Source: Chloroflexota bacterium
GTDB taxonomy: Bacteria > Chloroflexota > UBA11872
DNA length: 64,000 bases
Direction of reading: 5' to 3'
Assembly (NCBI GenBank): GCA_026707585.1
Contig: JAPOWQ010000074.1
Location: forward strand, 62,001-126,000
Shown here: positions 7,522-23,898 of the stretch, one piece after another
How positions within the stretch are numbered: position 1 is the stretch's first letter
Layout of the letters: every line of letters begins with the position of its first letter
Translations under genes and position numbers: made by a program
The notes under the pieces: model-generated
The model's input: the letters and a program-made list of their open reading frames with translations, nothing else
Databases searched by the model: none
What the model was told of the DNA's origin: nothing

Positions 7522-8976
7522 ATGGCAGGCTTCCACACAGTAGGACCGAATCACGCGCTGATCGTATCGGGCGGAAGTGCGCAACCGAGGCTGAAAGTCG
7601 GCGGCCGAATGTTCGTGCTGCCAGTCCTGCAGAAAGCGCAAATAATCTCGCTGGAGGTAATGACTCTCCAGGTCAACACGGCCAGGGTCTACACCAAGGA
7701 AGGCGTGTCGGTTTCCGTCGACGGCGTGGCGCAGGTGAAGGTTGGCCGTAGCGAAGACGCCATTCGTACCGCGGCCGAGCAGTTTCTGGGCAAGAGCGCC
7801 ATGCAGATCGCCGAGGTTGCCCTGCAGACGCTCGAGGGTCAGCAGCGCGCCATCCTGGGAACGATGACGGTCGAGGACATCTACCGTGACCGTGTGGCGT
7901 TTGCGGAGCAAGTGCGGGACGTGGCGGCCACCGACATGACCAACATGGGGTTGGAGATCGTCAGCTTTTCGATCCGCGACATTCAGGACGAGCAGGGCTA
8001 CTTGGAGGCCCTTGGTGTACGCAGGACGGCTGAGGTCAAGCGGGATGCGGCGATCGGCGAGGCGCAGGCTGAGCGGGATGCCGGCATAAAGGAAGCCTCA
8101 GCTGACCAGCAACGCCAGGCCGCTCGTTTCGAGGCCGACACGGCGATCGCTGAATCCGAGCGCGACTTCCAGACGCAGAAGGCTGCCTACGACCAGCAGG
8201 TCAACGCCCGAACCGCCGAAGCCGAGCTGGCGTACGCACTCCAGGAAGCCAAGACTCGCCAGCAGATCCGTGGGGAGGAGCTGCAGATCGAGGTTGTCGA
8301 GCGACAAAAGCAGATCGAAGTCCAGCAGCAGGAAATCATTCGACGCGAGCGTGAGCTGGACGCCACGGTGCGTCGACCGGCCGAAGCCGAGCGCGACCAG
8401 TTGGAGCTGATCGCCGAAGGTAATCGGCGGCGCATCAGGGTCGAGTCTGAAGCCGAGCGGTACAAGCTAGAGACGGTCGCGGAAGGCGAACGATCCCGGA
8501 TCATCGCCGAGGCTCAGGCCGGTGCTGAGTCCATCAGGCTGCGCGGCCGAGCCGACGCCGACGCCATCAGGGCGCGTGGTGAGGCTGAAGCCGACGCCAT
8601 TCGAGCCCAGGGTCTCGCCGAAGCCCAGGCAATGAACAAGAAGGCCGACGCCTGGAAAGAGTACGGCCAGGCGGCCATGATCCAGCAGCTGTTCGACTCG
8701 CTTCCGGATGTCGCGGGTGCGGTTGCGGAGCCGCTGGCCAAGACCGACAGCATCGTGGTGATCAGCAATGGCGGCGACAGCAACTCGGGCGCCGGAGCCA
8801 GCAAGGTGACGCAAGATGTTTCGTCCACCATTGCCCAGTTGCCGGCCCTGGTGCAGTCGCTTACGGGCGTTGATCTCATCAGTTCGCTCAAGAACCTGCC
8901 GGGCATCGTGTCCGACGAATCGGCGCAGAATGGCGCCGTCGAGGCGGAGGACTCGGCGTCGGACGAGGAAAAGTAG
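7522..8976 (+). CDS. Flotillin-like SPFH protein
   Basis: 484 residues. An SPFH/band-7 domain (about 20-185) is followed by a long Ala/Glu/Arg/Gln-rich coiled coil (about 185-385) with repeated EA-rich segments such as GEAQAERDAGIKEA, and a flexible C-terminus ending in acidic residues. There is no clear transmembrane helix; the short hydrophobic N-terminus (ALIVSGG) may associate with the membrane as in flotillins. It would scaffold membrane microdomains and is the expected partner of the NfeD protease 45 bases upstream. Start ATG 7522 is the natural N-terminus (FHTVGPNHALIVSGG). Confidence 0.9.
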   Translation: MAGFHTVGPNHALIVSGGSAQPRLKVGGRMFVLPVLQKAQIISLEVMTLQVNTARVYTKEGVSVSVDGVAQVKVGRSEDAIRTAAEQFLGKSAMQIAEVALQTLEGQQRAILGTMTVEDIYRDRVAFAEQVRDVAATDMTNMGLEIVSFSIRDIQDEQGYLEALGVRRTAEVKRDAAIGEAQAERDAGIKEASADQQRQAARFEADTAIAESERDFQTQKAAYDQQVNARTAEAELAYALQEAKTRQQIRGEELQIEVVERQKQIEVQQQEIIRRERELDATVRRPAEAERDQLELIAEGNRRRIRVESEAERYKLETVAEGERSRIIAEAQAGAESIRLRGRADADAIRARGEAEADAIRAQGLAEAQAMNKKADAWKEYGQAAMIQQLFDSLPDVAGAVAEPLAKTDSIVVISNGGDSNSGAGASKVTQDVSSTIAQLPALVQSLTGVDLISSLKNLPGIVSDESAQNGAVEAEDSASDEEK

Positions 8977-9098: not shown

Positions 9099-9977
9099 TC
9101 ACTCCGCACCAAACATGCGGGTCGGGTCGGCGACGCAGTGTTCGCCGCGGGCCGATTCGAGGGTGTGACCGTAGGCCAGCGGGGTAACCAGGCCGTCCTG
9201 CCGGAGGAATCCGTTGGCGTCCCGTTCGTAGAGCTCGCGCGCGGCGCGGCGGAGATCGTGGCCACCGAGTAGGCGAGCGATGGCGTTGCCCACTTCGCCC
9301 ACTCGTACCAGACCGGCGTCTTCCATGCGCTGGCCGAGGCGGTTGAAGTCGCTGCCGGGGTGACCGGGCTGTGGTGGGCAGCCGACGCTGACGAGCGGCG
9401 CCAGCGTGCCGTCGGCGCGGCGCATGGTCCTCCGATTCCGGACGGGTTTGCGATAGGGCACCTGTAACTCGATTTCGCTGAGGTGGACGGCGGTGAGGTT
9501 CTGGTAGGGGACACCGAGCAGGAGGTACAGGCCGTCGTGGTCGCGGATCTGGCACATGGGGCTGCCGGCGTCCCAGGCGGACTCGCCGCCGGCGGTCACG
9601 ATGGTCTCGGCGAGCGGGCCGATGGCGGAAATGCTGTGCCAGAGGTGAAGGCTGCGGCGAGCATCGGGATGCCGGCGGCCGGCATCGGAGATTGCGCCCA
9701 TGAGCGATGGAGTGTGCCGTGGATCGAAGACAAAGTTGGGATCACGAGAGAGCGGGTAGGTGAAGGCGGGAAGCACCAGGGTTCCGTCGGGCCCGAGGGT
9801 TTCCAGCAGGGCGTCGAGCACGGTGGGGGCGCCGCCGGTGACGTGGCCGAGGCTGCGCAGGGAGCTATGCACCATGAGCAGGCCGCCGCGAGGGACGCCG
9901 AGGCGAACGAGGTCTCGAACCAGGGTCGCGTGGTCGAGCGATTCGGTCCTCGGCCGCTGTTCAGGCACGGAAGTCAT
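9099..9977 (-). CDS. AAC(3)-family N-acetyltransferase
   Basis: 292 residues from ATG 9977 (an in-frame TTG three codons upstream is the alternative). It has the aminoglycoside 3-N-acetyltransferase (antibiotic_NAT) architecture: LLMVHSSLRSLG near the N-terminus, GTLVLPAFTY, a central LLLGVPYQNLTAVHLSE stretch with the family His, then a C-terminal helical part. Members transfer acetyl from acetyl-CoA to an amino group; many chromosomal homologues have unknown natural substrates, so resistance is not proven. It stands alone; the 490 bases upstream hold no gene. Confidence 0.85.
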   Translation of the reverse strand: MTSVPEQRPRTESLDHATLVRDLVRLGVPRGGLLMVHSSLRSLGHVTGGAPTVLDALLETLGPDGTLVLPAFTYPLSRDPNFVFDPRHTPSLMGAISDAGRRHPDARRSLHLWHSISAIGPLAETIVTAGGESAWDAGSPMCQIRDHDGLYLLLGVPYQNLTAVHLSEIELQVPYRKPVRNRRTMRRADGTLAPLVSVGCPPQPGHPGSDFNRLGQRMEDAGLVRVGEVGNAIARLLGGHDLRRAARELYERDANGFLRQDGLVTPLAYGHTLESARGEHCVADPTRMFGAE

Positions 9978-10079
9978 CCAATTCAAGCGCCGTGGGGTCC
10001 GTCAGGATGCCCTGCGCCTCGGTCTCGTAGAGCCGCCAGATTAGCCGCAGGCCCCGCAAGGTGGGTGGCTGCGGACGGT

Positions 10080-10467: not shown

Positions 10468-13400
10468 TCAGGTTTGCCGGCAGTCGGGAATGCTGAGTTC
10501 CTCGCGATCGGCAATGCGCACCCCGGATGGGATGCAGCCGGTGAGCGGATTGCCGGCCAGGTGAAAGGAGGACAGGTTTGATCGCCGTTGGGCGAGTTCC
10601 GGCGGGATCGGGCCGGTGAGTTGGTTGGCGCGAAGGTCCAGGCGCCAGATGCCGACGAGTTGGGCGAATTCGACAGGAATGGCACCGGTCAATTGGTTGG
10701 CGCTGAGGTCCAACTGGTCAAGGTTGGTCAGATTGCCAAGCTGCGAGGGGATAGGCCCGGTCAGTCGATTGGAGCCGAGGTAAAGCTCGCGCATGCCCGC
10801 CGACTGGCCAAGTTCGGACGGAATCGGGCCAGATAGCTGATTCGCGCCGAGATCGAGGTAGTACAGGTCGGTCAATCGACCCAACTCCGCAGGGATCGGT
10901 CCCGTGAACTGGTTGCCGCTTAGGTCGAGATAGCCCAGCCTCGACAGCCGACCGAAGCCGGAAGGAATGGCGCCGGCGAGCCTGTTGCCGTTGAGTTGCA
11001 GGTTCCCGAGGTCCGCGAGCTGCGTGAATTCGGGCGGGATCGGGCCGGTCAATAGGTTTTGGCTGAGGTTTAGCAACCTCAGAGTCGTCATAGTCCCCAG
11101 CCAGGCAGGAATCTGGCCGGTCAGCTGGTTGTCGCCAAGACTGAGCGCTTGCAGGCTCGAAAGGTCCACGAGCCAGGGTGGAATCGGGCCGACCAGCCGG
11201 TTGCCGTGAAGTTGAAGCCACTCCAGGCCTGCCAGATGGCGCAGCGCCGACGGGATTTCGCCAGTTAGCCGGTTATCCCCGAGGCGCAGGGCCTGGAGGC
11301 TGGAGAGGCTCCCCAACTGGAATGGGATGACGTCTGTCAACTGGTTGGAGGCGAGGTGGAGCACGGTGAGATTCGACAGCAGCCCTAGCTGGGGCGGGAT
11401 CGAGCCATCCAGTTCGTTGTCGCTGAGATGGAGCCCGGTCAAGTGCGCGAGCCGGCCGAACTGGGACGGGATGGGTCCGCCCAGAAAGTTGCGACGAAGA
11501 TCCAGCGTCCGCAGTTGCGAAAGTTGACCCAACTCTGGCGGCAGCACGCTCCACAAGCCGCGGCCCGGGAGCGCCACGCCATGGACTCGAAGCGGTGCGC
11601 CGCCAAGCTCGACGCCGTTCCAGGCGGTTAGGGGCTGATCCGACGTCCAACCGAGCTTCCCCACACCTGCAAGGGTTGCCTGTGCCACCAGCAGGGCCTC
11701 GCAGTCGGCGACGAGGCCGGGGTTAGAGCCAGGATCCGGGACGACGACTCCGGCGCGACAGCCAGCGACATCGACAGTCGCCGTCGACTGGCGGGCGCCT
11801 CTTAAGTAGAGCCCGCGCGGGGTGAAGGTTCGGTCGAGGAATCGAAGAAAGTCGTCTCGATGAGGGGCCACGAGGTCGTGCCGGAGGAGGACTCGAACGT
11901 CGCTGCCATCCGGGGCCATCGTGTAGAGGGCCACTCGTTGCGGTCGGTTGGGATCGGGGCTTCCGAGACGGACGACGGCGACCCGCGAGCCGTCCGGCGA
12001 CCAAGTCGCCGCCATCGGCAGATCCGACAGTCGCAAGGGTGAACGGCCAACCGCCGATCCGTCCACGTCAATCACGCACACCGACCCGCCACAGGCATAG
12101 AGAATCCTGGAGCCGTCCGGCGACCACGACACGGTTGGAATCCAGGCGTGCGCAGGGCCCAGCTCGAGTTGCCGCGGCGGAAGATGCGATCGCCAGCCAT
12201 CGATCCCGGTCAAGCGGCGCGCGTCCGTGCCGTCCGCCGCAATGGTGTAGAGCGCCACGCCGTCAGGGTCCGGCCGGGCGAACGCCAGACGCCTGCCGTC
12301 CGGCGACCATGAGGCGCTGCTGACGGCCTCCGAGAGCCGGATGTAGTCACCATTACCTGACGTAGAAATGACGTGGAGCTCCCCCAAACCCCGCAGGCTG
12401 GCTCCAAACGAGCTGGCCGCCGACCACGCCTGCTGGTTCGCGATTCCCGTGACGGCCAGCCAGCGACCGTCGGGAGACCAGGCGGGCGTCTGGGCGGCCA
12501 CGAAATCGAATCCGCCGGGAAGCATCCGAGCATTGGCGCCGTCGGCCTGTACGACATGCAGACGCGCCGTTGGTTGCCATACGGACGACCTCGGTTCGAT
12601 TTCCACGTAGGCGATGTTGGCACCGTCAGGCGACCAAGCCGCGTAGTTCTCGAAGCGTGCGCTTACCGTGAGCCGGTGGCGGTGGCTGCGGTCAAGGCTC
12701 TCGATTACCAGATCCTGCTGCAGGTCAAAGCTCGAGCGGCGCGTTCCCCACCCTGGCCGTGGGTATTCGCAGGTGGCGTATACGAGGCGGGCGCCATCGG
12801 GAGCGAGATGGAAGGGAGTCTGACCGGCGTGAATCCGCCGCGTGTCAGCGATGTGTCGCAGGCGGCTTCCATCAGCCGCAACCGCGAAGATGTCGGCGCC
12901 ATGGCTGAATACGACCTCCGTGCCGTTGGGACTCCACTGCGCGTAGCTGGCCGTCCGCTGGCCGAACCGAAACGGCCCTCCGCAAGGCGTGGGTATAGGC
13001 TGCGACCCCGCCGTGACCGGTGCCTGACTGACCGCTTCCGGCGTCGGCGATTCCCGCGGAGCGTCCGAAGGCCGCCCATCAAAGGCCCAGCCGAAGAGGT
13101 TGCGGACGTCGTCGCGGTGGTCGCGCTGGCAGGCGGACTCGGCGGCGGCGGCGGCGCCGAATGCGCGCTGGTAGATCTGGACGTTGCCGGGGTTGCCGAG
13201 GTGGGCTTCGACGATGTCGTTGAGGGCGACGCAGGTGGAGGGCCAGGGGGTGGGGGCGATGGGACCGGCGGAGCCTTCGTCGAAGGCCCAGGCGAAGACG
13301 GCGCGGACGTCATCGCGATGGTCGGACTGGCAGGCGGCTTCGGCGCCGTCACCGAAGGTGCGCTGGTAGATGCCGACGTTGCCGTGATTGCCGAGGTGGG

Positions 13401-13512
13401 CTTCGACGATGTCGTTGAGGGTGACGCAGGCGGTGGGCCATTGGGCCAGGGCAGGGGAGGCGAAGGCGAGGGCGGTCAAGAGCCCGACAGCCAGCAAGGC
13501 GATTAGACGCAT
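10468..13512 (-). CDS. Secreted TolB-propeller / plant-type LRR protein with duplicated N-terminal module (array member 1)
   Basis: 1014 residues from ATG 13512 (an open frame to 13563 adds 17 residues before the signal peptide and is not preferred). Order: Sec signal peptide ending ALAQW; two copies of a 50-residue module (C-V-x-L-NDIVEAHLGN ... IYQR-x-F ... C-Q-x-DHR-x-DVR ... WAF); seven WSPDG-type PD40/TolB repeats (about 180-560); a cap region with CRAGVVVPDP and DCEALLVAQ; then 14 leucine-rich repeats of the L-x-x-L-x-L-x-x-N-x-L-x-G-x-IP class, closed by CIPSG and IPDC. It is probably extracellular and binding in function. It shares the N-terminal module and spacer with the four RCC1 proteins upstream on the same strand, 69 bases away. 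Confidence 0.85.
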   Translation of the reverse strand: MRLIALLAVGLLTALAFASPALAQWPTACVTLNDIVEAHLGNHGNVGIYQRTFGDGAEAACQSDHRDDVRAVFAWAFDEGSAGPIAPTPWPSTCVALNDIVEAHLGNPGNVQIYQRAFGAAAAAESACQRDHRDDVRNLFGWAFDGRPSDAPRESPTPEAVSQAPVTAGSQPIPTPCGGPFRFGQRTASYAQWSPNGTEVVFSHGADIFAVAADGSRLRHIADTRRIHAGQTPFHLAPDGARLVYATCEYPRPGWGTRRSSFDLQQDLVIESLDRSHRHRLTVSARFENYAAWSPDGANIAYVEIEPRSSVWQPTARLHVVQADGANARMLPGGFDFVAAQTPAWSPDGRWLAVTGIANQQAWSAASSFGASLRGLGELHVISTSGNGDYIRLSEAVSSASWSPDGRRLAFARPDPDGVALYTIAADGTDARRLTGIDGWRSHLPPRQLELGPAHAWIPTVSWSPDGSRILYACGGSVCVIDVDGSAVGRSPLRLSDLPMAATWSPDGSRVAVVRLGSPDPNRPQRVALYTMAPDGSDVRVLLRHDLVAPHRDDFLRFLDRTFTPRGLYLRGARQSTATVDVAGCRAGVVVPDPGSNPGLVADCEALLVAQATLAGVGKLGWTSDQPLTAWNGVELGGAPLRVHGVALPGRGLWSVLPPELGQLSQLRTLDLRRNFLGGPIPSQFGRLAHLTGLHLSDNELDGSIPPQLGLLSNLTVLHLASNQLTDVIPFQLGSLSSLQALRLGDNRLTGEIPSALRHLAGLEWLQLHGNRLVGPIPPWLVDLSSLQALSLGDNQLTGQIPAWLGTMTTLRLLNLSQNLLTGPIPPEFTQLADLGNLQLNGNRLAGAIPSGFGRLSRLGYLDLSGNQFTGPIPAELGRLTDLYYLDLGANQLSGPIPSELGQSAGMRELYLGSNRLTGPIPSQLGNLTNLDQLDLSANQLTGAIPVEFAQLVGIWRLDLRANQLTGPIPPELAQRRSNLSSFHLAGNPLTGCIPSGVRIADREELSIPDCRQT
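13160..13475. repeat. Near-identical 5' coding block, copy 1
   Basis: DNA encoding the signal peptide and both N-terminal modules is repeated with high identity at 13160-13475, 16030-16330, 19060-19345 and 23550-23845, and more weakly at 21300-21560. Coding similarity this close at DNA level points to recent duplication or gene conversion. Confidence 0.75.
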
Positions 13513-13581
13513 TGGCCTAGCTCGGATTCCGGTTGATCGAGCTGTGCTGCGAGGACGTCGCATTGCCCCGGTCCTTGGTGG

Positions 13582-16374
13582 TCATGCCGGTGGGGTGGTG
13601 CGGCCGTCGTCGTTGCCCCAGCAGACGGCGGTGCCGTCAGGGCGCAGGCCACAACTAAAGTCGAATCCGGCAGCGACAGCAGAGAGGAGTCCGGGCGGCG
13701 GTGTTGACTGGCCCTGATCGTTTCGCCCCCAGCAAGCGGCAGCGCCATCACGTCGAACGCCGCACGTGTGGCCAGAGCCGGCGCTGACCGAGGCAAACTG
13801 GCCTGACGGCGGCGTGGCCTCGCCGTAGCGGTTGGATCCCCAGCAGACAGCGGATTCGTCGTCGCGAAGGCCGCAGGCGTAGTCGCCGCCAACGCTGAGT
13901 GACGCGAAAGTACCTGGCGGGGCCTGCGTGCTCCCGTCGCGACTCTCGCCCGTGCAGGCCACAACCCCGTTGGTGCGGATGCCGCAAACGTGGCTGGATC
14001 CAAGGCCGACTGTCACAAACTTCCCAGGCAATGAAAAGGCCACACTATCCGGTTCGGAAGTCTGGCATTCGATCGCACCGTCGGCGCGCACGCCGCAGAC
14101 CTGCCTCGAACCAGCGCTCAGGGCCAGAAATTCGCCGGTTGGTGGCCTGACCGCACCGAACAGACCTCGCCGCCAGCAGGCGATGCTCTGATCCGACCGG
14201 ATGCCGCAGCTCTGACCCGAACCAATGCTGAGTAACGCGAATCGACCAGTTGGGGGCGACTCCAAGCCGCCGAGCCTCCGACCCCAGCAGACGACCGACG
14301 CGTCTGAACGAAGGCCGCAGGCATGGCCCTCACCGGCACTCACGGAGATGAACGAGCCTGATGGTGAATCGGTTTGTCCGAAGGCATTTGCCCCCCAGCA
14401 AAACACCTGTGCGTCCGTGCGCACGCCACACGCGTGGTCTCGACCGGCGCTTATCGAGTCAAACAGACCATCGGGGGGCGAGGCTCGGCCATCGCCGTTG
14501 TAGCCCCAGCATTCGAGTTCGCCACCAAGTCGAATCCCACAGGTGAACGCCGTGCCTGCGCTGACCGAAGAAAACCCTCCTATCGGTGGTCGGGCCTGAC
14601 CCGTGTCCTCTCGAAAATGCTCGTTAGATCCCCAGCAGGCGAGAGTTGCGTCCGCACGCAGGCCGCAACCATGCGAACCGCCGACGCTGACCGACGTGAA
14701 GGCTCCGGGCGGCGGCGAGAAGTCCACTCCCCAGCAGGCAATCGTGTGGTCCGTGCGAATGCCACACGACCGATTGTCGCCGGTGCTGACTGATCGAAAG
14801 GCCCCCGAGGGCGGCGCGGTTTGACCGTAATCTTGCAGCCCCCAGCAAGCCAAACTCCCGCCGGAACGCACGCCACAGCTGTGCCAGCGCCCGACGCCGA
14901 TGGAGGAGAACTTGCCGGCCGGGGGCGTCGCGAGGCCCTTGTAGTTTGATCCCCAGCAGTCGATCGTTCCGTCGGTTCGGATTCCACAGCTAAACCCGTC
15001 CCCGTCACCGACCGCGACGAAACTCCCTGACGGCGAGAACGGCTTTCGATCCAGGCCACCGCCCCAACAATCAACTGTGGAATCGGGGCGAATCCCGCAG
15101 GTGTGGCTGAGGCCCGCGCTCAGCGAGACAAACACGCCCGGAGGCGGTGTCGTGGCGCCATCGTCGTTGCCCCAACACTCGATCTCGCCGCTGACCCGCA
15201 GTCCGCAGCTGTGCAGATCGCCGGACGTCACAGACTGGAACGCACCGGAAGGTACTTCGAGCTGACCCGATCGATTCGAACCCCGACAGGTGACAGTTCC
15301 ATCGGTGCGGACGCCGCAGGTGTGAGAAAGGCCAATACTGATTGACTGAAGGCCTCCTGGAATGAAGTGCATTCCATGCCGGTTGCCCCAGCACGCCATT
15401 GATCCGTTGGTTCGGATCCCGCACGCATGGCTCGTATTCGACTCAACGGTGACAAACGAGCCTTCAGGCGGCGTAGCGAGGCCGCGGCGGGTATCGCCCC
15501 AGCAACTAACGGCGCCGTCAGGACGCAGCCCACAGCTGAAGCCAAAGCCGGGGCTCACGACCGCAAATTGCCCCGGCGGAGGAGTGGATTCGCCGTCGTC
15601 GATGCTTCCCCAGCAGGCCGCCGTCCCGTCGGCGCGGACCCCGCACGAGTGCCAGCTTCCGGCGCTCACGGACTGAAACGGGCCGGCGGGTGCATCGGAT
15701 TCTCCGAACCGATTGGAACCCCAACAGGAAACGGTGCCGTCGGTGCGCACGCCGCAGGTGTGGCGTTGGCCAGCACTGATGGAGGTGAATGTGCCGGATG
15801 GCGGTATTGCCTGGTTTGTCTGCGTGAGGGCCCAATTGGTGTTGCTACCCCAACAGGCGACGGTGTGGTTGGCGCGGATGCCGCAGGTGTGGCGTTCGCC
15901 GGCGTCGACGGCGAGCCAGCGGGTGGCGGGTTGGGGGCCGCCGAAGGCCCAGGCGAAGAGGTTGCGGACGTCGGCGCGGTGGTCGCGCTGGCAGGCGGAC
16001 TCGGCGGCGGGGCCGGGGCCGAAGGCGCCTTGGTAGATCTGGACGTTGCCGGGGTTGCCGAGGTGGGCTTCGACGATGTCGTTGAGGGCGACGCAGGTGG
16101 AGGGCCAGGGGGTGGGAGCGATGGGGCCGGCGGATTCGCCGTCGAAGGCCCAGGCGAAGACGGCGCGGACGTCGTCGCGATGGTCGGACTGGCAGGCGGC
16201 TTCGGCGCCCGCGTCAAAGGTGCGCTGGTAGATGCCGACGTTGCCGTGGTTGCCGAGGTGAGCCTCGACGATGTCGTTGAGGGTGACGCAGGCGGTGGGC
16301 CACTGGGCGAGGGCGGGGGAGGCGAAGGCGAGGGCGGCCAGGAGCGCCGCGGCCAGCACGGCGGTCAGGCGCAT
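13582..16374 (-). CDS. Secreted RCC1-repeat protein with duplicated N-terminal module (array member 2)
   Basis: 930 residues. Signal peptide to ALAQW, two 50-residue NDIVEAHLGN modules (to about residue 150), then about twenty RCC1-like repeats of 37-38 residues with consensus F-x-S-V-S-A-G-x-x-H-T-CG-x-R-x-DG-x-x-x-CWG-x-N-x-x-G-x-PP-x-G. Each repeat keeps two Cys, suggesting disulfides outside the cell. The last repeat stops in phase (CWGNDDGRTTPPA). RCC1 repeats form seven-bladed propellers, so roughly three propellers are expected. Some spacers degenerate (CWRRGLFG). Function unknown; binding or surface interaction is inferred from the architecture. Confidence 0.85.
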   Translation of the reverse strand: MRLTAVLAAALLAALAFASPALAQWPTACVTLNDIVEAHLGNHGNVGIYQRTFDAGAEAACQSDHRDDVRAVFAWAFDGESAGPIAPTPWPSTCVALNDIVEAHLGNPGNVQIYQGAFGPGPAAESACQRDHRADVRNLFAWAFGGPQPATRWLAVDAGERHTCGIRANHTVACWGSNTNWALTQTNQAIPPSGTFTSISAGQRHTCGVRTDGTVSCWGSNRFGESDAPAGPFQSVSAGSWHSCGVRADGTAACWGSIDDGESTPPPGQFAVVSPGFGFSCGLRPDGAVSCWGDTRRGLATPPEGSFVTVESNTSHACGIRTNGSMACWGNRHGMHFIPGGLQSISIGLSHTCGVRTDGTVTCRGSNRSGQLEVPSGAFQSVTSGDLHSCGLRVSGEIECWGNDDGATTPPPGVFVSLSAGLSHTCGIRPDSTVDCWGGGLDRKPFSPSGSFVAVGDGDGFSCGIRTDGTIDCWGSNYKGLATPPAGKFSSIGVGRWHSCGVRSGGSLACWGLQDYGQTAPPSGAFRSVSTGDNRSCGIRTDHTIACWGVDFSPPPGAFTSVSVGGSHGCGLRADATLACWGSNEHFREDTGQARPPIGGFSSVSAGTAFTCGIRLGGELECWGYNGDGRASPPDGLFDSISAGRDHACGVRTDAQVFCWGANAFGQTDSPSGSFISVSAGEGHACGLRSDASVVCWGRRLGGLESPPTGRFALLSIGSGQSCGIRSDQSIACWRRGLFGAVRPPTGEFLALSAGSRQVCGVRADGAIECQTSEPDSVAFSLPGKFVTVGLGSSHVCGIRTNGVVACTGESRDGSTQAPPGTFASLSVGGDYACGLRDDESAVCWGSNRYGEATPPSGQFASVSAGSGHTCGVRRDGAAACWGRNDQGQSTPPPGLLSAVAAGFDFSCGLRPDGTAVCWGNDDGRTTPPA
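16030..16330. repeat. Near-identical 5' coding block, copy 2
   Basis: Same block as 13160-13475, in the 5' part of array member 2. The spacer just upstream (16375-16444) also resembles 13513-13581. Confidence 0.75.
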
Positions 16375-16444
16375 TGGTCTACTTCGGAATCGGGTCTATC
16401 GAACCGTGCGGCCAGGGGCGTGGGAATGCCCCGATTTGCGGCGA

Positions 16445-19405
16445 TTAGGCCGGTGGGGTGGTGCGGCCGTCGTTGTAGCCCCAGCATTCGGCGGCGCCGT
16501 TGGGGCGGAGGCCGCAGCTGAAGTCGTCGCCGACGGTGACGGAGGCGAAGGCGCCGGGTGGGGGCGACGATTCGCCCTGGTCGTTCAATCCCCAGCAGGC
16601 GACGGCACCATCGGTGCGCAGGCCGCAGGTGTGGCCGGAGCCGGCGCTGAGGGCCGTGAAGGATCCGGAGGGAGGCTGGGTGAGGCCGTAGGAGTCCGAT
16701 CCCCAGCAGGCCACGGTTCCATCCGCTCGCACCGCGCAGGTGTGGTTGTCGCCGACGCCCAGCGCGGTGAAGCGGCCGGGCGGCGGTTGGGTCTTTCCAT
16801 CATCGCTGTCGCCCCAGCAGACGACGGCACCATTGGTGCGAAGGCCACAGGCGTGGTCCCAGCCCGTCCCGACTGACGCGAATGCGCCGGGCGGCGTCGA
16901 CGACTCGCCAAGTAAGTCGCCCCAACACTCGACGGCGCCGTTGGTGCGCACGCCGCAGGCGTAGCCCTGCCCCCAGCCGCTAGCGCTGACCACGCTGAAT
17001 GTCCCGGACGGCGGGTTCATGTCCGGAGGGGTGACGACGGGTGATTGCGCCGGCGAATACGACAAGCGCGTGAACCCGGAGGGCAGGTTCAGGTCCGCGC
17101 TGCCGGCGACGGGTGACGGCAGCGGCCCAGACGCCAACAGCGTGGACCCGGACGGCGGGTTCGCATCCGCGCCGTAGACGGTGGTGCCCTCCCAACAGAC
17201 GAGGGAACCGTCGATTCTGATTCCGCAACTGTAGTCGTACGTAATGCTGAGCGATGCGTAGGCAAACGGCGGCGGGGAGGTGACGCCATAGGGACCGCGT
17301 CCCCAGCACGCAACGGAGCCATCGGCGCGGAGTCCGCAGGACTGGCCGTCGGCGGCGGTGACGGCGGTGAAGTTTCCAGGCGGGGGGCTGGATTGGGCGC
17401 GGTCGTTGGATCCCCAGCAATCCACCGAGCCATTGGGACGCACGCCGCAACTGTGGACGAATCCCGCGCTGATGGAGGTGAAGGCGCCGGACGGCACCGA
17501 CGTGCGACCGTCCCGGTTGGAGCCCCAGCAGACGCCGGCGCCATCGGTCCGCACGGCGCATGTGTGCCCGCCGCCTGCACTGACGGACACGAAGGCACCC
17601 GCGGGCGCGTTGGTCTGCCCGGCGTCGTTGTCGCCCCAGCAGGCGATGGCGCCGTCCGGCCGCAGGCCACAGGTGTGCCAGCTCCCGGCGCTGACAGACG
17701 TGAAGCGACCAGATGGCGGCGTGGCTTGCCCGCGGCCGTCCCGGCCCCAGCACTCGACGGCGCCGTCGCTGCGAAGGCCGCAGGAGTGCCCCCAGAAGGA
17801 GCCGCCGGAGCTGACGGCGGTGAAGGCGCCTGACGGCGCGTTGATCTGCCCATAGTCGTTGTCGCCCCAGCACTCGACGGCGCCGTCCGGGCGCACGCCG
17901 CAGGTGTGCCGGGCTCCGGCGCTGACCGCGGCGAATGTTCCAGCCGGCGGCGAGGACTGGTTGTTGTGGTCAGATCCCCAGCACTGGACGATTCCGTCGG
18001 AACGAAGTCCGCAGACGTGGTTGTACCGGCCGGTGACTGACGTGAAGTTGCCGGGGGGCGTGAATAGCTCGTTGCGGAGTCCCCGACCCCAGCAGTCAGC
18101 ACTGCCGTCGGCCCGGATACCGCAGACGCGCGCATCTCCAGCGGTGAGGGAGACAAAGGCACCCGGTAGCGGCGTGGCCCGGCCGTCGTCGTAGCCCCAG
18201 CAGGCCAGTTGGCCGTTGGTGCGGAGGCCGCAGGCGTGATCCTCGCCAACCGCGACGGACCGGAACGGGCCGGAGGGCGGCGACGCTACGCCGGACAAGT
18301 CCGATCCAGGGCAATGCGCGCTGCCGTCCGTGCGCACCCCGCACAGGCGGTAGCGATGCAGGTTGATGGACTGAAACGTGCCCGACGGCGCCGCGATGCC
18401 AAGCAGGCTTCCCCAGCAGGCGACTTCTCCATTTGCGCGGATGCCGCAGACACTGGAGAAGCCGGCGTCAACCGCGACGAAGGCGCCGTCGGGCGGTGAT
18501 GCCAGGCTGCCCTCGTAGCCTTCACGCCCCCAGCAGGAAATCGCGCCGTCCGGTCGCAGGCCGCAGGTGAAGCCGGCCCCTGCACTGACCGCGGTAAACG
18601 TGCCCGGAGGCGGCGTGGCCTGTCCATCGTCATTGTGGCCCCAGCAGGCGACGGTGCCGTTGGTGCGGATGCCGCAGGCGTGCGCATTGCCGGCGCTGAC
18701 GGACGTGAAGGGGCCCGCCGGGGCATTCAGGCGGTCCAGGTGGTCGAGGCCCCAGCAGGAGATCGATCCGTCCGTGCGCACGCCGCAGGTATAGAGGTCA
18801 CTGGCGCTGATGGCGGTGAAGGTCCCAGCCGGAGGGTCGGCCTGGCCCCGTACCGTTCCGTAGCCGTCGGTGTTGCTGCCCCAGCAGGCGACGGTGCCAT
18901 TGGTGCGGATGCCACAGGTGTGACGTTCGCCGGCGTCGACAGCAAGCCAACGGGCGGCGGGCTGGGGGCCGCCGAAGGCCCAGGCGAAGAGGCCGCGGAC
19001 ATCCTGACGGTGGTCGCGCTGGCAGGCGGCTTCAGCGGCGGGGCCAGTGCCGAAGGTGCGCTGGTAGATCTGGACGTTGCCGGTGTTGCCGAGGTGGGCT
19101 TCGACGATGTCGTTGAGGGCGACGCAGGTGGAGGGCCAGGGGGTGGGGGCGATGGGACCGGCGGAGCCTTCGTCGAAGGCCCAGGCAAAGACGGCGCGGA
19201 CGTCGTCGCGATGGTCGGACTGGCAGGCCTGCTCGGCTTGCTCGCCGAAGACCCGCTGGTAGATGCCGACGTTGCCGTGATTGCCGAGGTGCGCTTCGAC
19301 GATGTCGTTGAGGGTGACGCAGGCGGTGGGCCATTCAGCCAAGACGGGGGAGCCGAAGGCGAAGGCGGCGGCGAGGGCGACGATCAGGACGCGGAAATGG
19401 CGCAT
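16445..19405 (-). CDS. Secreted RCC1-repeat protein with duplicated N-terminal module (array member 3)
   Basis: 986 residues. Signal peptide (ending VLAEW), the same two NDIVEAHLGN modules with conserved Cys pairs, then about twenty RCC1 repeats ending CWGYNDGRTTPPA. At about 17000-17190 the array is interrupted by three shortened units lacking the CG-x-R ... CWG core (NPPSGSTLLASG, NLPSGFTRLSYS, NPPSGTFSVVS), the only Cys-free patch in the protein. The start is ATG 19405, preceded by a spacer with the GTACATTGTTCATAG box shared with member 5. Same inferred role as member 2. Confidence 0.85.
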   Translation of the reverse strand: MRHFRVLIVALAAAFAFGSPVLAEWPTACVTLNDIVEAHLGNHGNVGIYQRVFGEQAEQACQSDHRDDVRAVFAWAFDEGSAGPIAPTPWPSTCVALNDIVEAHLGNTGNVQIYQRTFGTGPAAEAACQRDHRQDVRGLFAWAFGGPQPAARWLAVDAGERHTCGIRTNGTVACWGSNTDGYGTVRGQADPPAGTFTAISASDLYTCGVRTDGSISCWGLDHLDRLNAPAGPFTSVSAGNAHACGIRTNGTVACWGHNDDGQATPPPGTFTAVSAGAGFTCGLRPDGAISCWGREGYEGSLASPPDGAFVAVDAGFSSVCGIRANGEVACWGSLLGIAAPSGTFQSINLHRYRLCGVRTDGSAHCPGSDLSGVASPPSGPFRSVAVGEDHACGLRTNGQLACWGYDDGRATPLPGAFVSLTAGDARVCGIRADGSADCWGRGLRNELFTPPGNFTSVTGRYNHVCGLRSDGIVQCWGSDHNNQSSPPAGTFAAVSAGARHTCGVRPDGAVECWGDNDYGQINAPSGAFTAVSSGGSFWGHSCGLRSDGAVECWGRDGRGQATPPSGRFTSVSAGSWHTCGLRPDGAIACWGDNDAGQTNAPAGAFVSVSAGGGHTCAVRTDGAGVCWGSNRDGRTSVPSGAFTSISAGFVHSCGVRPNGSVDCWGSNDRAQSSPPPGNFTAVTAADGQSCGLRADGSVACWGRGPYGVTSPPPFAYASLSITYDYSCGIRIDGSLVCWEGTTVYGADANPPSGSTLLASGPLPSPVAGSADLNLPSGFTRLSYSPAQSPVVTPPDMNPPSGTFSVVSASGWGQGYACGVRTNGAVECWGDLLGESSTPPGAFASVGTGWDHACGLRTNGAVVCWGDSDDGKTQPPPGRFTALGVGDNHTCAVRADGTVACWGSDSYGLTQPPSGSFTALSAGSGHTCGLRTDGAVACWGLNDQGESSPPPGAFASVTVGDDFSCGLRPNGAAECWGYNDGRTTPPA
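19060..19345. repeat. Near-identical 5' coding block, copy 3
   Basis: Same block as 13160-13475, in array member 3. Confidence 0.75.
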
Positions 19406-19442
19406 GGACTCAGACCGTGGGACCCGGTGGCTAGCCGGGAAG

Positions 19443-19622
19443 CTATGAACAATGTACCCGGTGGAAGGATAGTCGGGCGAGGGCCCAATATGTAGGTACT
19501 GTTGTATCGGTTCGCGCGAAACGATGGGTGTGCGCGATGCCCACGGCCGGCAATTGGAGCTGGGGCGATCGCGTAGCGCTTCAAGTTTGGGCAGACGTCC
19601 AAATCAGAGCGAACACGGCTAC
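19443..19622 (-). repeat. Duplicated upstream region of array member 3
   Basis: Homologous to 23935-24116: both contain a TATGAACAATGTACC box next to the gene, a GATGCCCACGG block, and end in CAGACGTCCAAATCAGAGCG. On the - strand GGTACATTGTTCATAG offers TACATT as a conserved -10 candidate. It probably carries the promoter of member 3. Confidence 0.7.
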
Positions 19623-21878
19623 CTAAAAGCGGTAGCGGCCGGGCGGGTTGGGTTTCGCCGGGGCGTTGACGCCGGTATGGCCAGAGCCCAGGCAGTAGGG
19701 GCTGCCGTCGGACCGGGCGCCGCAGAGGTGGCTTGTGCCGACGCTGAGCGACACGAACGTGTCCGAGGACGGGTAGCGCCCGAAGTAGCTCTTGTGGCCC
19801 CAACAGGCGGGGGAGCCATCGGCACGAAGGGCGCAGGTGTCGAAGTCGCCGGCCTCTACGGAGGTGAATGTGCCCGGTGGAGGGGTGGCCTGGCCTTCGG
19901 TGTTGGATCCCCAGCAGGCCAGGCTGCCGCTGGCGCGGACGCCGCAGGTGTGGGAGTCGCCAACGGCGACCGATACAAACGGACCGAGGGGCGGTGTGGA
20001 TTGGCCCTCGTCGTTGGCTCCCCAGCAGGCGATCTGGCCATTGGAGCGCAAGGCGCAGGTGTGGCGAAGTCCGGCGCTGACGGCAGTGAATGCGCCGGAC
20101 GCGGCGGCCGTCTGCCCCTCGCCACCGTAGCCCCAGCAAGCGACGGACCCGTTGGAACGGACGGCGCAGGTGTGGTACTGGCCGGCGCTCACCGCGGTGA
20201 AGGCACCGGCCGGCGGCGCGGCCTGGCCGTGATCGTTGAGGCCCCAGCAAGCGAGCGCACCGTCGGGTCGCACACCGCAGGTGTGCCAGAAGCCGGCGCT
20301 GACGGAGGCGAAGGCGCCGGGTGGCGGGGCGGACTGGCCGGAGCTGTTCCGGCCCCAGCAGGCGACTTGACCATCGGCCCGAATGCCGCAGGTGTGCTGG
20401 TGACCGGCGCTGATGGAGGCGAACTGGCTGGGCCAGGGTGCGGCCTCCCCATAGGCGTTGCCGCCCCAACAGACAACCGCGCCACTTTGGCGCACGCCGC
20501 AGGTGTGATCCCGGCCCACGCTGACCGTGCTGAACGGGCCGGCCGGCGGCGTGGCCTGACCGTCTTCGTTGGAGCCCCAGCAGGCGATGGTTCCGTCGGC
20601 GCGAATGCCGCAGGCGGTCCGGTAGCCGACGCTGACGGACGTGAAGGGGCCAGGCGGCGGCGTGGTCATGCCGCTGAAGGCCCAGCCCCAGCAGTCGACC
20701 GAGCCGTCGGTTCGCAGGCCGCAGCTGACACTGGAGCCTGAGTCAATTGACGTGAAGACGCCTGGCGGAGGCTCGAAGCTGGCGTAGGCGCTTTCGCCCC
20801 AGCAGACGGCGGCGCCGTCGGGCCGGAGCGCACAGGCGTGATCGCTTCCAGCGCTTACGGCAACGAATCTTCCCGGTGGAGCATTGGTGAGATGGTCAAC
20901 GCGAACGCCCCAGCACTCGATCGAGCCATCGGCGCGGATCGCGCAGGCGTGCCGGTCGCCGACGCTGAGCGACGCGAATCTGCCTTCCGGCAGATCTCCG
21001 GTCGCGCCCCAACACTCCAGTGAGCCATTGGGGCGGAGGCCGCAGTTGGAGCTGCGGCCAGCGGAAATCGCGGTGAAGGCGCCGAGCGGCGGTTCGGCCT
21101 GGCCGTCCCAGTTGCCACCCCAGCAGCCAACCAGGCCGTTGGCGCGGATGGCGCAGGTGTGGCTTTCGCCGGCGGCGACGTCGATCCACTCGTCGGGCGG
21201 CTGGATGCCAAAGGCCCAGCCGAAGAGCAGGCGCACGTCGTCGCGGTGATCCGAGCGGCAGGCGGCCTCGGCCGAAGGACCCCCGCCAAACGCGCGCTGA
21301 TAGATGCCGACGTTGGTGTTGTTGCCCAGGTGGCTCTCGACGATGTCGTTGAGATCCACGCAGGTGGCGGGCCAGGGAGCAGGCTGGCGAATGGCGCCCG
21401 GTGCGATATCGAAGGCCCAGGAGAAGACGCCGCGCACGTCTTCGCGGTGGTCGGACCGGCAGGCCTCCTCGGCGTCGGTGTGGTAGGCGCGCTGGTAGAT
21501 GCCGACGTTGCCGTAGTAGCCGAGGTGGGTTTCGACGATGTCGTTGAGTTCGACGCAGCTTCGGGGCCATTGGGCCGCGGCCGGTTCAGCGGGAAGGAGC
21601 GCTGCAGCGACTGCCACAAAGACGATGACTGCGTAGCGGGTAAGGAGACGCCAGCGGCTGGCTGCAGCGCGCGTTCCGACAGATGGGTCGGGGGGAGCTG
21701 CGGCCGGCGAGCGCGGACCCGGCAATGGCCTGGCGTGCCGGGGCGGCTGGTCTGGGTTGTGACGTGACCTGGACTGGCGGCGTGGAGGACTCACCTGGAC
21801 ATCCCTTGCGGCTGGCCCTGACCGAGACACCGCCCCATGCCTCTCAGGATACGGATCGTTGTAAAGCGGCGCGCGCAT
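19623..21878 (-). CDS. Secreted RCC1-repeat protein with divergent N-terminal modules (array member 4)
   Basis: 751 residues if ATG 21878 is the start. The frame stays open to 22202, but that extension overlaps member 5 in a shadow frame and is rejected. The signal region (RYAVIVFVAVAAALL, cut near AAAQW) begins about 80 residues in, so an internal GTG or TTG could be the true start. The two modules are the most divergent of the family (VELNDIVETHLGYYGNVGIYQRAY; VDLNDIVESHLGNNTNVGIYQRAF). About fourteen RCC1 repeats follow. The C-terminus leaves the repeat pattern (CLGSGHTGVNAPAKPN). Only 13 bases separate it from member 5, so the two are probably co-transcribed. Confidence 0.8.
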   Translation of the reverse strand: MRAPLYNDPYPERHGAVSRSGPAARDVQVSPPRRQSRSRHNPDQPPRHARPLPGPRSPAAAPPDPSVGTRAAASRWRLLTRYAVIVFVAVAAALLPAEPAAAQWPRSCVELNDIVETHLGYYGNVGIYQRAYHTDAEEACRSDHREDVRGVFSWAFDIAPGAIRQPAPWPATCVDLNDIVESHLGNNTNVGIYQRAFGGGPSAEAACRSDHRDDVRLLFGWAFGIQPPDEWIDVAAGESHTCAIRANGLVGCWGGNWDGQAEPPLGAFTAISAGRSSNCGLRPNGSLECWGATGDLPEGRFASLSVGDRHACAIRADGSIECWGVRVDHLTNAPPGRFVAVSAGSDHACALRPDGAAVCWGESAYASFEPPPGVFTSIDSGSSVSCGLRTDGSVDCWGWAFSGMTTPPPGPFTSVSVGYRTACGIRADGTIACWGSNEDGQATPPAGPFSTVSVGRDHTCGVRQSGAVVCWGGNAYGEAAPWPSQFASISAGHQHTCGIRADGQVACWGRNSSGQSAPPPGAFASVSAGFWHTCGVRPDGALACWGLNDHGQAAPPAGAFTAVSAGQYHTCAVRSNGSVACWGYGGEGQTAAASGAFTAVSAGLRHTCALRSNGQIACWGANDEGQSTPPLGPFVSVAVGDSHTCGVRASGSLACWGSNTEGQATPPPGTFTSVEAGDFDTCALRADGSPACWGHKSYFGRYPSSDTFVSLSVGTSHLCGARSDGSPYCLGSGHTGVNAPAKPNPPGRYRF

Positions 21879-21891
21879 GGCGGACGGCAAG

Positions 21892-23898
21892 CTAGGGCGG
21901 CGGGGTGGCGCTGCCGTTGTCGAAGCCCCAGCAGCGCAGGGCGGCGTCCGCGCGGACGCCGCAGGCGAACTCGACTCCAGAGCTGACGGAGGTGAAGGCG
22001 CCGGGCGGCGGGGTGGACTCGCCGCGATCGTTGCGACCCCAGCAGGCGAGTTCGCCGCCGGAGCGCACCCCGCAGGAGTGGAACCAGCCAGCACTGACGG
22101 AGCGAAAGGCGCCGGGCGGGGGCGAGGATTCGCCGAAGTAATCGGTTCCCCAGCAGGCGACGGTTCCGTCGAGTCGGATGCCGCAGACGTGCCGCCAGCC
22201 AATGCTCAAGGAAACCAGATTGACGCCGTCGGGCACCGTGGATTGGCCGTAGGAGTCACTGCCCCAGCATTCGACGGCGCCGTCGGGACGCGCGCCGCAG
22301 GTGGCGGTTCGGCCGGCGCTGAGGGCCGCAAAGGCTCCGATGGGAGGCCTGGGCAGGAAGGCGCCGCCCCAGTCCCGGCCCCAGCAGGTGACGGTGCCAT
22401 CGGGCCGGATGCCGCAGGTGAAGTTGCGGCCGGCGTTGACGCTGGTGAAGGCGCCCGGCGGCGGGGTGGCCTGACCATCCTTGTTCAGACCCCAGCAGTC
22501 GATGGTGCTGTCAGGCCGGATGCCGCAGGTGTGGCCGCGTCCGGCGCTGATGGAGGTGAAGGCACCAGGCGGCGGGGCGGCCTGGCCGTTGGCGTTCGAT
22601 CCCCAGCAGGCGACGGCGCCGTTGACGCGGATGCCGCAGGCGTGGGATCGACCGGCGCTAACGGCGGTGAATGCGCCGGACGGCGGCGTGGCTCGACCAT
22701 CGTCGAACCTCCAGCAAGCCAGGCGTCCGTCGGTACGGACGCCGCAGGTGTGGCCCCAGCCGGCGCTGAGTGATCGGAAGGCGCCTGCGGGAGGTGTGAC
22801 CAGGCTTTCGGCCGGGGAACCCCAGCATGCGACCGAGCCGTCCGGGCGCAGGCCGCAGGTGTGGCGGTTGCGGGAAGTGACAGAGGTGAAGCGGCCGTGC
22901 GGCGGCGTGGCCCTGTCGTTCTCGTTGGATCCCCAGCAGGCAAGGGCGCCGCTCTGGCGAACGCCGCAACCGTGGTCCAATCCGACGCTAATGTCTACAA
23001 ACGTGCCGGATGGCGGGGTGGCCGCGCCACTGGAGTTGTCGCCCCAGCAGGCAATCCGCCCGTCACGGCGGAGCGCACAGCCGTGGTTGGTTCCGGAACT
23101 GACGGCGGTGAAGACGCCGGATGGAGACCGGGTCTGGCCGGTGGTGTTGACGCCCCAGCACGCGAGCGATCCGTCAGTGCGGATTCCGCAGGTGTGGCCG
23201 AAGCCGGCACTGATGCGGACGAACTGGCCTGGCGGGGGCGTGGCCCGGCCGTCGTAGTTGGATCCCCAGCAGGCGACCAAACCGTCAGTGCGGATGCCGC
23301 AGGAGTAGGCGTAGCCGGTGGTGACGGAGGTGAATGTGCCGGGCGGCGGTGCGGCCTGGCCGTTGTCGCTATTGCCCCAGCAGGCGACGGTTCCGTCAAC
23401 GCGGATACCGCAGCTGTGGTCGCCGCCGGCGCTGACGGACAGCCAACGGCTGGCGGGGGCGCCACCGAATGCCCAGGCGAAGAGGTCGCGGACATCCTCC
23501 CGGTGGTCGCGCTGGCAGGCGGATTCGGCGGCGGGGCCGGCGCCGAAGGTGCGCTGGTAGATCTGGACATTGAAATCTTTGCCGAGGTGGGCTTCGACAA
23601 TGTCGTTGAGGACGACGCAGGTGGAGGGCCAGGGGGTGGGGGCGACGGGGTCGGCGGCTTCACCGTCGAAGGCCCAGGCGAAGACAGCGCGGACGTCGTC
23701 GCGGTGGTCGGATTGGCAGGCGGCTTCGGCACCGTCACCGAATGCGCGCTGGTAGATACCGACGTTGCCGTGGTTGCCGAGATGGGCTTCGACGATGTCG
23801 TTGAGAGCGACGCAGGCGGTGGGCCATTGAGCGAGGGCGGGGGAGGCGAAGGCAAGGGCAGCGGCGAGCGCGACGATCAGGACGCGGATATGGCGCAT
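21892..23898 (-). CDS. Secreted RCC1-repeat protein with duplicated N-terminal module (array member 5)
   Basis: 668 residues. Signal peptide MRHIRVLIVALAAALAFA to ALAQW, nearly the same as member 3; two NDIVEAHLGN modules (the second reads HLGKDFNVQIYQRTF); then about fourteen RCC1 repeats with paired Cys, ending CWGFDNGSATPPP. It is the first gene of the array in transcription order, and its upstream region is duplicated before member 3. Expected to be exported; partner unknown. Confidence 0.85.
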   Translation of the reverse strand: MRHIRVLIVALAAALAFASPALAQWPTACVALNDIVEAHLGNHGNVGIYQRAFGDGAEAACQSDHRDDVRAVFAWAFDGEAADPVAPTPWPSTCVVLNDIVEAHLGKDFNVQIYQRTFGAGPAAESACQRDHREDVRDLFAWAFGGAPASRWLSVSAGGDHSCGIRVDGTVACWGNSDNGQAAPPPGTFTSVTTGYAYSCGIRTDGLVACWGSNYDGRATPPPGQFVRISAGFGHTCGIRTDGSLACWGVNTTGQTRSPSGVFTAVSSGTNHGCALRRDGRIACWGDNSSGAATPPSGTFVDISVGLDHGCGVRQSGALACWGSNENDRATPPHGRFTSVTSRNRHTCGLRPDGSVACWGSPAESLVTPPAGAFRSLSAGWGHTCGVRTDGRLACWRFDDGRATPPSGAFTAVSAGRSHACGIRVNGAVACWGSNANGQAAPPPGAFTSISAGRGHTCGIRPDSTIDCWGLNKDGQATPPPGAFTSVNAGRNFTCGIRPDGTVTCWGRDWGGAFLPRPPIGAFAALSAGRTATCGARPDGAVECWGSDSYGQSTVPDGVNLVSLSIGWRHVCGIRLDGTVACWGTDYFGESSPPPGAFRSVSAGWFHSCGVRSGGELACWGRNDRGESTPPPGAFTSVSSGVEFACGVRADAALRCWGFDNGSATPPP
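23550..23845. repeat. Near-identical 5' coding block, copy 4
   Basis: Same block as 13160-13475, in array member 5. Confidence 0.75.

Follow-up and report, generated by a model that had tools for sequence, protein, structure and literature searches.

SLH domains and lipobox anchors are small, N-terminal and often repeated, and are found on many unrelated exported proteins. Propellers of the RCC1_2/BLIP-II type, and those of CRINKLY4 (ACR4), have seven blades of about 37 residues, and ACR4 has one disulfide per blade. Polymorphic toxins combine a constant front part with an exchangeable C-terminus (PMC3482391). Amplified beta-propellers, of which RCC1/BLIPII is one of the groups, change blade number, and the blade counts reported for WD40 propellers peak at 7 and 14 but also fill the range between these values as a continuum (PMC9218822). 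Uncultured Chloroflexota are reported to be abundant in sponges (PMC6306507). Eukaryotic-like proteins with ankyrin, LRR and TPR repeats are described as a trait that sponge symbionts, among them Chloroflexota, generally share, and some of these proteins are reported to help bacteria evade phagocytosis (PMC6306507, PMC8163846; the sponges sampled in the latter are Coscinoderma and Rhopaloeides).

Within the 64,000-nucleotide stretch of Chloroflexota DNA analysed (the window), positions 10468-23898 hold an array of five open, intact minus-strand genes (Table 1). As in the original prediction, each encodes a signal peptide, two copies of a Cys-paired module and a repeat domain, and all ten module copies, of 57 residues, were recovered. 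The cargo is a PD40 propeller with LRRs in one gene and 14 or 21 RCC1 blades in four. The single gene predicted to combine TolB and plant-type LRRs is gene 1, which matches PF07676 (PD40/TolB-like repeats, 3.8e-16) and PF00560 (LRR, 4e-44) and has LRRs at a spacing of 24 residues from 684 to 948. A collapsed assembly would be an artefactual source of such an array; these genes are too divergent for this, since their first seven RCC1 blades are just 49-61% identical between genes and orthologues occur in independently assembled genomes. The reading frame of gene 4 opens at 22202, and TTG 21725 or ATG 21878 are better start candidates. The flanking gene at 25422 has no Pfam match at 0.001, and its designation as a solute-binding protein is our own reading. 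The 80% shared DNA upstream of genes 1 and 2 consists mostly of the 3' ends of the preceding RCC1 genes and is uninformative on promoters.

Table 1. Features of the module gene array and its flanks (positions in the window)
Feature	Position	Strand
Flotillin/SPFH gene; conserved flank and locus marker outside the system, in 12/13 genus members	7522..8976	+
Antibiotic_NAT-type acetyltransferase; conserved flank, last shared gene ahead of the variable array	9099..9986	-
Gene 1: signal peptide, double module, PD40/TolB-like propeller, ~13-14 plant-type LRRs	10468..13563	-
Gene 1, module copy 1	13264..13440	-
Gene 1, module copy 2	13069..13245	-
Gene 2: signal peptide, double module, 21 RCC1 blades (3 x 7)	13582..16374	-
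Gene 2, module copy 1	16126..16302	-
Gene 2, module copy 2	15931..16107	-
Gene 3: signal peptide, double module, 21 RCC1 blades, ~53-residue insert between blades 16/17	16445..19405	-
Gene 3, module copy 1	19157..19333	-
Gene 3, module copy 2	18962..19138	-
Gene 4: signal peptide, divergent double module, 14 RCC1 blades (2 x 7)	19623..~21725	-
Gene 4, module copy 1	21393..21569	-
Gene 4, module copy 2	21198..21374	-
Gene 5: signal peptide, double module, 14 RCC1 blades (2 x 7)	21892..23898	-
Gene 5, module copy 1	23650..23826	-
Gene 5, module copy 2	23455..23631	-
Other flank: putative solute-binding protein gene, 91-95% identity in relatives G005, G007, G008 and G011	25422..26951	-

The four RCC1 regions match RCC1_2 (PF13540) at 1e-95 to 1e-118, with 361.9, 381.7, 312.4 and 319.3 bits against a cut-off of 22. 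Four such genes had been foreseen, and the earlier estimate of about 14-20 repeats gives way to counts of 21, 21, 14 and 14 in genes 2, 3, 4 and 5. Among complete RCC1 genes of the lineage, the blade number is an exact multiple of seven in 41 of 44, thus the domains appear to be strings of seven-bladed propellers. Unlike amplified WD40 propellers (PMC9218822), these genes keep to near-strict sevens. Given these multiples and a mean likeness of just 44-50% among the window blades, growth seems to have been by whole propellers rather than by recent addition of single blades. The predicted Cys pairing in every blade stands (C-x9-C in 70 of 70), and the full form that includes CWG is present in 62 of the 70. 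The RCC1 regions of the window genes contain no Cys beyond the blade pairs, and disulfides in the blades are probable from this pattern. PDB neighbours, by sequence and by model, are the ACR4/CR4 ectodomains, BLIP-II and UVR8 (best neighbours of the gene 5 model at E ~1e-17, for a mean pLDDT of just 65.5). The ACR4 chain has the same Cys-...-Cys-Trp-Gly pattern, and several window blade Cys align with its Cys. In contrast to ACR4-type proteins, those described here are bacterial, exported, without a kinase and fused to the module, and differ from both BLIP-II and ACR4 in having two or three propellers per chain (elsewhere six or seven), nearly always in sevens.

An alignment of the ten module copies in the window has 32 invariant columns of 61, including two invariant Cys per module. 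The predicted structure is a confident, independent helical domain (pLDDT 91, pTM 0.82). Searches of Pfam, NCBIfam and PDB gave no match, no PDB fold neighbour of the model was found below E = 6, and comparison with SLH (PF00395) gave no match up to E = 10. The module is thus unnamed in the libraries searched, as originally claimed. Family libraries should gain a separate entry for it. Unlike SLH domains and lipobox anchors, it is all-helical, has an invariant Cys pair and lacks a sequence match to described anchors; no relation to any described anchor domain was found. Arc-type PDB chains match the module profile at E = 0.003 to 0.14, and in Pfam one of 52 module members gives such a match at E = 0.16. 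These weak profile matches to Arc/ribbon-helix-helix proteins were taken as chance, the model having no beta strand. An origin in mobile elements or phages was also rejected, as plasmids, phages and viral contigs gave no match (the viral contigs were scanned with peptide patterns).

There are 33 module copies in this genome and 9-30 in most relatives; searches placed the module in two families of a single Chloroflexota order and found it nowhere else. Of 106 distinct module proteins, 94 have it directly behind the signal peptide, and the predicted mature N-terminus is marked by the motif A-x-A↓QWP, in which W and P are invariant and Q is first in 96 of the 106. The module carries cargo from at least ten unrelated families within the lineage, and RCC1, LRR, ankyrin, PD40, trypsin, nuclease (two types, SNase and GmrSD_C), sortilin-like, fn3 and ABC-solute-binding domains occur behind it. 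Among the carriers are an SBP_bac_5 solute-binding protein with the module and without a lipobox (in two genomes), a cytochrome c with a double module behind a Pro/Thr linker, and one ankyrin family with a module on each end of the ankyrin domain. A constant module with exchangeable domains was correctly predicted, and its cargo range is far wider than the window shows. The predicted surface recognition is too narrow a description, given that module carriers also include proteases, nucleases, a cytochrome c and an ABC solute-binding protein. One small module fronts dozens of exported proteins with very different binding or enzyme parts, and could serve as a sequence tag for the surface or secreted proteome of these bacteria from metagenomes.

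The eukaryote-like repeats of the module system are LRR, RCC1 and ankyrin, of which LRR and ankyrin are types in common with the eukaryotic-like proteins of sponge symbionts. The sponge reports, in the portions relevant here, count repeats but do not describe a shared N-terminal module (PMC6306507, PMC8163846), and RCC1 is absent from the text of PMC6306507. A sponge origin of the relatives is suggested by isolate prefixes taken together with what PMC8163846 reports of its samples.

We give an even chance to a retention reading: the module would be a helical domain, specific to the lineage and stabilised by disulfides, by which exported proteins are kept at the cell envelope with their exchangeable cargo free to act outside. 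A lipobox was called in none of the 106 module proteins. Among RCC1 proteins, it occurs in 0 of 20 with the module and 14 of 27 without (Fisher p = 6e-5, a value that does not allow for relatedness and overstates the case because paralogues are not independent). SLH domains are absent from 25 genomes of the class, with control genomes positive, and no C-terminal anchor was seen after the last RCC1 blade. The lipobox exclusion lends indirect support to the anchoring role originally predicted, and is consistent just as well with free secretion. Solute-binding protein and cytochrome c are cargo normally retained by the cell, and were counted for anchoring; the cytochrome c has its own N-terminal hydrophobic segment, so the module may be unneeded as its anchor. 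We infer both the anchoring and any host role of the module proteins. In the proposed sequence of events, Sec export would be followed by signal peptidase I cleavage right before QWP (the motifs are present, the cleavage is predicted), leaving one or two modules as the mature N-terminus. The two invariant Cys would close each module, which would then bind a partner in the envelope and substitute for the lipid anchor or SLH domain used elsewhere. The cargo on display would be two or three seven-bladed RCC1 propellers, or a propeller and an LRR arc; the seven-fold blade number is observed, the folding is suggested by homology and a middling model, and the disulfides are probable. Tentatively, and with low probability, the QWP module may form an unrecognised surface-display system, limited to the two families, in which a dedicated envelope receptor captures every exported carrier and the lineage recombines the module with repeat domains, giving 10-20 exchangeable surface proteins for contact with its animal host. 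The double module is a well-defined domain of 124 residues (23455-23826 in gene 5) with which to seek an envelope or host ligand.

The same features admit other explanations. The module is all-helical, often doubled, mostly N-terminal and strongly conserved, and the ankyrin family with modules on both ends resembles a cross-linker, as would suit a domain for assembly or sorting. Its helical pair would then self-associate or bind an export chaperone to build multi-protein arrays, e.g., an S-layer-like coat. We consider this doubtful, as neither sequence nor fold relatives in such a role were found and 28 of the 106 proteins have a single module. It is rather unlikely that the proteins are instead released, with the module a targeting adhesin for the surroundings (sponge matrix, mucus or other symbionts) and not an anchor to the cell's own surface. 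Plain signal peptides without a lipobox would fit release, as would cargo with secreted-type enzymes and fn3, sortilin-like and RCC1 binding domains, and the relatives' metagenomes appear sponge-derived from their isolate codes. Neither the ABC solute-binding protein nor the cytochrome c, however, would be of much use to the cell after release, and in most carriers conservation is highest in the module, which is undiversified and unlike typical host-facing parts.

It is very improbable that RCC1 genes were simply duplicated in tandem to give the array, the module being no more than an N-terminal extension conserved within a single paralogous family: genes 2, 3 and 5 are indeed plain paralogues, but the range of unrelated cargo in the same lineage contradicts it, and the histories of module and cargo differ. 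Least credible, to the point of being hardly worth entertaining, is a system like the polymorphic toxins, in which a constant trafficking front carries a variable toxic C-terminus. Despite the exchanged C-terminus, for which one swap was observed, and the two nuclease-like cargo types, the cargo is mostly non-toxic (binding repeats, proteases and metabolic proteins), in contrast to the described toxins (PMC3482391), and the array genes are closely spaced, with no small immunity-type genes seen between them. As a separate observation, some module-less RCC1 proteins (42-49 blades) likewise have plain signal peptides and count against the anchoring reading.

The repeat domains have dN/dS of 0.2-0.54 in every pair (pairwise comparison, with dS partly saturated). 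Positive selection on the RCC1 faces was rejected on these values, and the diversifying system of the original prediction, if read as positive selection, is not borne out. Synonymous divergence is lower in the module (dS 0.18-0.35) than in the rest of the same gene pairs (0.78-1.61; genes 2-3 and 3-5 of the window, and gene 2, the LRR gene and gene 3 each against G005). The cargo of an RCC1 gene in G008 is 66-70% like gene 4 and its counterpart in G007, but its module is 94% like that of the LRR gene of G011 and just 70-73% like those of gene 4 and G007. The G008 gene, in which the orthologous RCC1 domain sits behind another kind of module, is by sequence comparison a direct swap of parts between neighbouring genes. 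The array also differs in copy number between relatives: one and the same pair of neighbours encloses 4, 1 or 0 RCC1 genes, counts that are partly limited by contig ends. Recombination in the near-identical region of signal peptide plus module homogenises the modules and allows new pairings of module with cargo, and the array gains and loses copies, as shown by the dS contrast, the one swap and the 4, 1 and 0 RCC1 genes. The near-strict sevens and the observed module swap are clear cases of evolution by whole-domain recombination.

Reading of the genes confirmed the predicted five-gene array, in which a signal peptide and a double module are followed by exchanged repeat domains. Each protein begins with a hydrophobic signal peptide with an A-x-A end, then two copies of a 57-residue Cys-paired module at fixed spacing. 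For gene 4, no clear start codon lies near the signal peptide (candidates are TTG at 21725 and ATG at 21878).

Coordinates of the five-gene array and the domains encoded behind the double module
Feature	Position	Strand	Content
Array of five consecutive genes	10468-23898	minus	Proteins of ~670-1030 residues
Gene 1	10468-13563	minus	PD40/TolB-like repeats and LRRs
Gene 2	13582-16374	minus	RCC1 repeats up to (or almost to) the final residue
Gene 3	16445-19405	minus	RCC1 repeats, as gene 2
Gene 4	19623 to ~21725	minus	RCC1 repeats, as gene 2
Gene 5	21892-23898	minus	RCC1 repeats, as gene 2

The module is real, absent from the libraries searched, and more widespread than originally seen. It was thought to be unnamed, and profile searches agree: Pfam gave only chance matches up to E = 10, NCBIfam gave none, and the PDB held no credible relative by sequence (Arc-type matches were dismissed as not credible) or by fold. 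An AlphaFold2 model from an alignment of 47 double modules (pLDDT 91.1, pTM 0.82) predicts helices confidently, with a short and then a long helix in copy 1 and an insertion that interrupts the long helix in copy 2. Invariant across 52 diverse module copies are W, P, two Cys, L, D, I, Y, A, E and a late W.

The proposed combination of a constant module with exchangeable cargo is borne out, and the range of cargo is broader than first described. Module proteins in the sample form 38 clusters. Beyond RCC1 and LRR/PD40, their cargo includes trypsin-like proteases, staphylococcal nuclease with Excalibur, ankyrin repeats, sortilin/BNR propellers, fn3, GmrSD_C, GLUG repeats, a Cache domain, cytochrome c and an SBP_bac_5 solute-binding protein; in several large families the cargo has no Pfam match. 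Of 106 distinct proteins, 94 have the module immediately after the signal peptide, and Q-W-P forms the predicted mature end. Eleven of the remaining 12 belong to a cytochrome c family in which the double module stands at the end, after a Pro/Thr linker. Repeated N-terminal elements shared by many exported proteins are an already known type of feature; what is new, within the limits of the searches, is this module, its restriction to the lineage and the range of its cargo.

The CBB3-type cytochrome c with a C-terminal double module occurs in 11 genus members (in the window's genome, L170:2318-3394, G000:C64); the orthologue in G002 (L202:949-2655) has an unrelated, unnamed region at that position. 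An ankyrin protein of the window's genome carries the module at both ends (L171:1982-3040, G000:C9), a layout repeated in relatives from several genus genomes. At least two large families (L166, L168 first ORF, L120, L132, L137; and L173, L175, L177) have long C-terminal parts with no Pfam match except an fn3 domain in L173. In SBP_bac_5 proteins of two genomes from a second family, the module replaces the lipobox (L140:2981-4951, L242, L243), and the gene adjoins a putative luciferase-type monooxygenase gene, assigned by reading its sequence. Protease-like proteins with 14 or 7 RCC1 blades lack the module (L223 and L224, from G012:C67 and G005:C77), and L059 joins the module to trypsin and 7 blades; on a cargo of this type the module may be optional.

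The function of the module we infer. The front part of RCC1 proteins in these genomes is a plain signal peptide, with the module or without it, or else a lipobox, a membrane helix or a different domain. A lipobox is present in 0 of 20 RCC1 proteins with the module and in 14 of 27 without it, so that the two never occur together. The module-bearing solute-binding protein lacks its usual lipid anchor, the RCC1 proteins of the window have no C-terminal anchor, and SLH domains were not found in the 25 genomes searched. On these grounds, each circumstantial, we consider the chances evenly balanced that the module anchors exported proteins. Free secretion would account for the lipobox data equally well.

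The window's genome encodes 33 module copies, and 12 of the 13 genomes of the genus encode 10-33. In a second family of this order, one genus contributes two genomes, with 9 and 12 copies, and two of six sister-genus genomes have 4 and 1. No copies were found in the remaining searched genomes of the class, in the rest of 400 genomes sampled across the phylum, or in plasmids, phages and viral contigs. Scanning 84,980 species genomes with a sequence pattern, which picks up fairly close relatives only, returned 76 loci, all in records titled as Chloroflexi/Chloroflexota MAGs. The sole genus genome with zero copies, G003 (2.1 Mb, 76% complete), likewise has no RCC1 matches, flotillin or solute-binding gene, and module absence there probably reflects an incomplete genome, not true loss. 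Isolate codes (including COS, RHO and CO36386) suggest sponge samples. PMC8163846 describes sampling of Coscinoderma and Rhopaloeides and names a Chloroflexota class UBA2235. We infer that the lineage lives with sponges.

An NfeD-flotillin-acetyltransferase flank is kept across most of the genus; no array gene lies beyond it within the 13-14 kb examined in G004, G006, G010 and G012. On the opposite flank lies a solute-binding-like gene, with 91-95% identity in G005, G007, G008 and G011. Comparison of orthologous loci, restricted on the far side by contig ends, revealed copy-number changes: between this flank and the LRR gene, the window has four RCC1 genes, G005 a single one and G011 none. Synonymous divergence is 0.25 in the module and 1.61 in the remainder between genes 2 and 3, 0.18 and 1.56 between gene 2 and G005, and 0.31 and 0.95 between the LRR genes of the window and G005. 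The module values are far lower than purifying selection on the protein can account for, and are explained by gene conversion or by a front cassette that has been replaced repeatedly. The RCC1 domain of G008 is of the gene-4 kind (66-70% identity, versus ~50-57% to others), but the module in front of it shares 94% identity with the module of the G011 LRR gene, against 70-73% with those of gene 4 and the G007 orthologue. Front and back have recombined in this gene. Diversification by positive selection is not supported: dN/dS of 0.2-0.54 gives no average sign of it.

RCC1 repeats were correctly recognized in four genes, at higher numbers than the suggested 14-20 in two of them: genes 2-5 have 21, 21, 14 and 14 blades. 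The proposed Cys pair (C-x9-C) is present in all 70 blades, and the full pattern, with W-G after the second Cys, in 62; the RCC1 regions contain no other cysteines. The best PDB sequence matches are plant ACR4 (1.6e-20), which shares the Cys-...-Cys-Trp-Gly pattern in alignment, and BLIP-II (2e-19). A medium-quality model of gene 5 (pLDDT 65.5, 11 sequences) is closest in fold to CR4/ACR4 ectodomains, BLIP-II and UVR8.

Blades were counted with an HMM built on the window's own repeats and run on every fetched RCC1 gene. The 44 complete, distinct genes comprise 24 with 7 blades, 11 with 14, three with 21, two with 42 and one with 49; the other three have 13, 15 and 27, two of these with gaps of 70 or 220 residues that possibly hide an uncounted blade. 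The binomial value for the multiples of seven (2e-31) should not be read literally, since the genes share ancestry. The rule is nevertheless clear: the proteins seem to gain and lose seven-bladed propellers as whole units. In contrast, a published survey of amplified propellers found that WD40 propellers are most frequent at 7 and 14, with all numbers in between also forming a continuum (PMC9218822). Giant RCC1 proteins without the module have 49 repeats (7 x 7) in G005 (L216, G005:C59:169500-178500), at least 47 in the window's genome, where a contig end cuts the gene (L160, G000:C20:1-9000), and 42 (6 x 7) in two sister-genus genomes (L217, L218).
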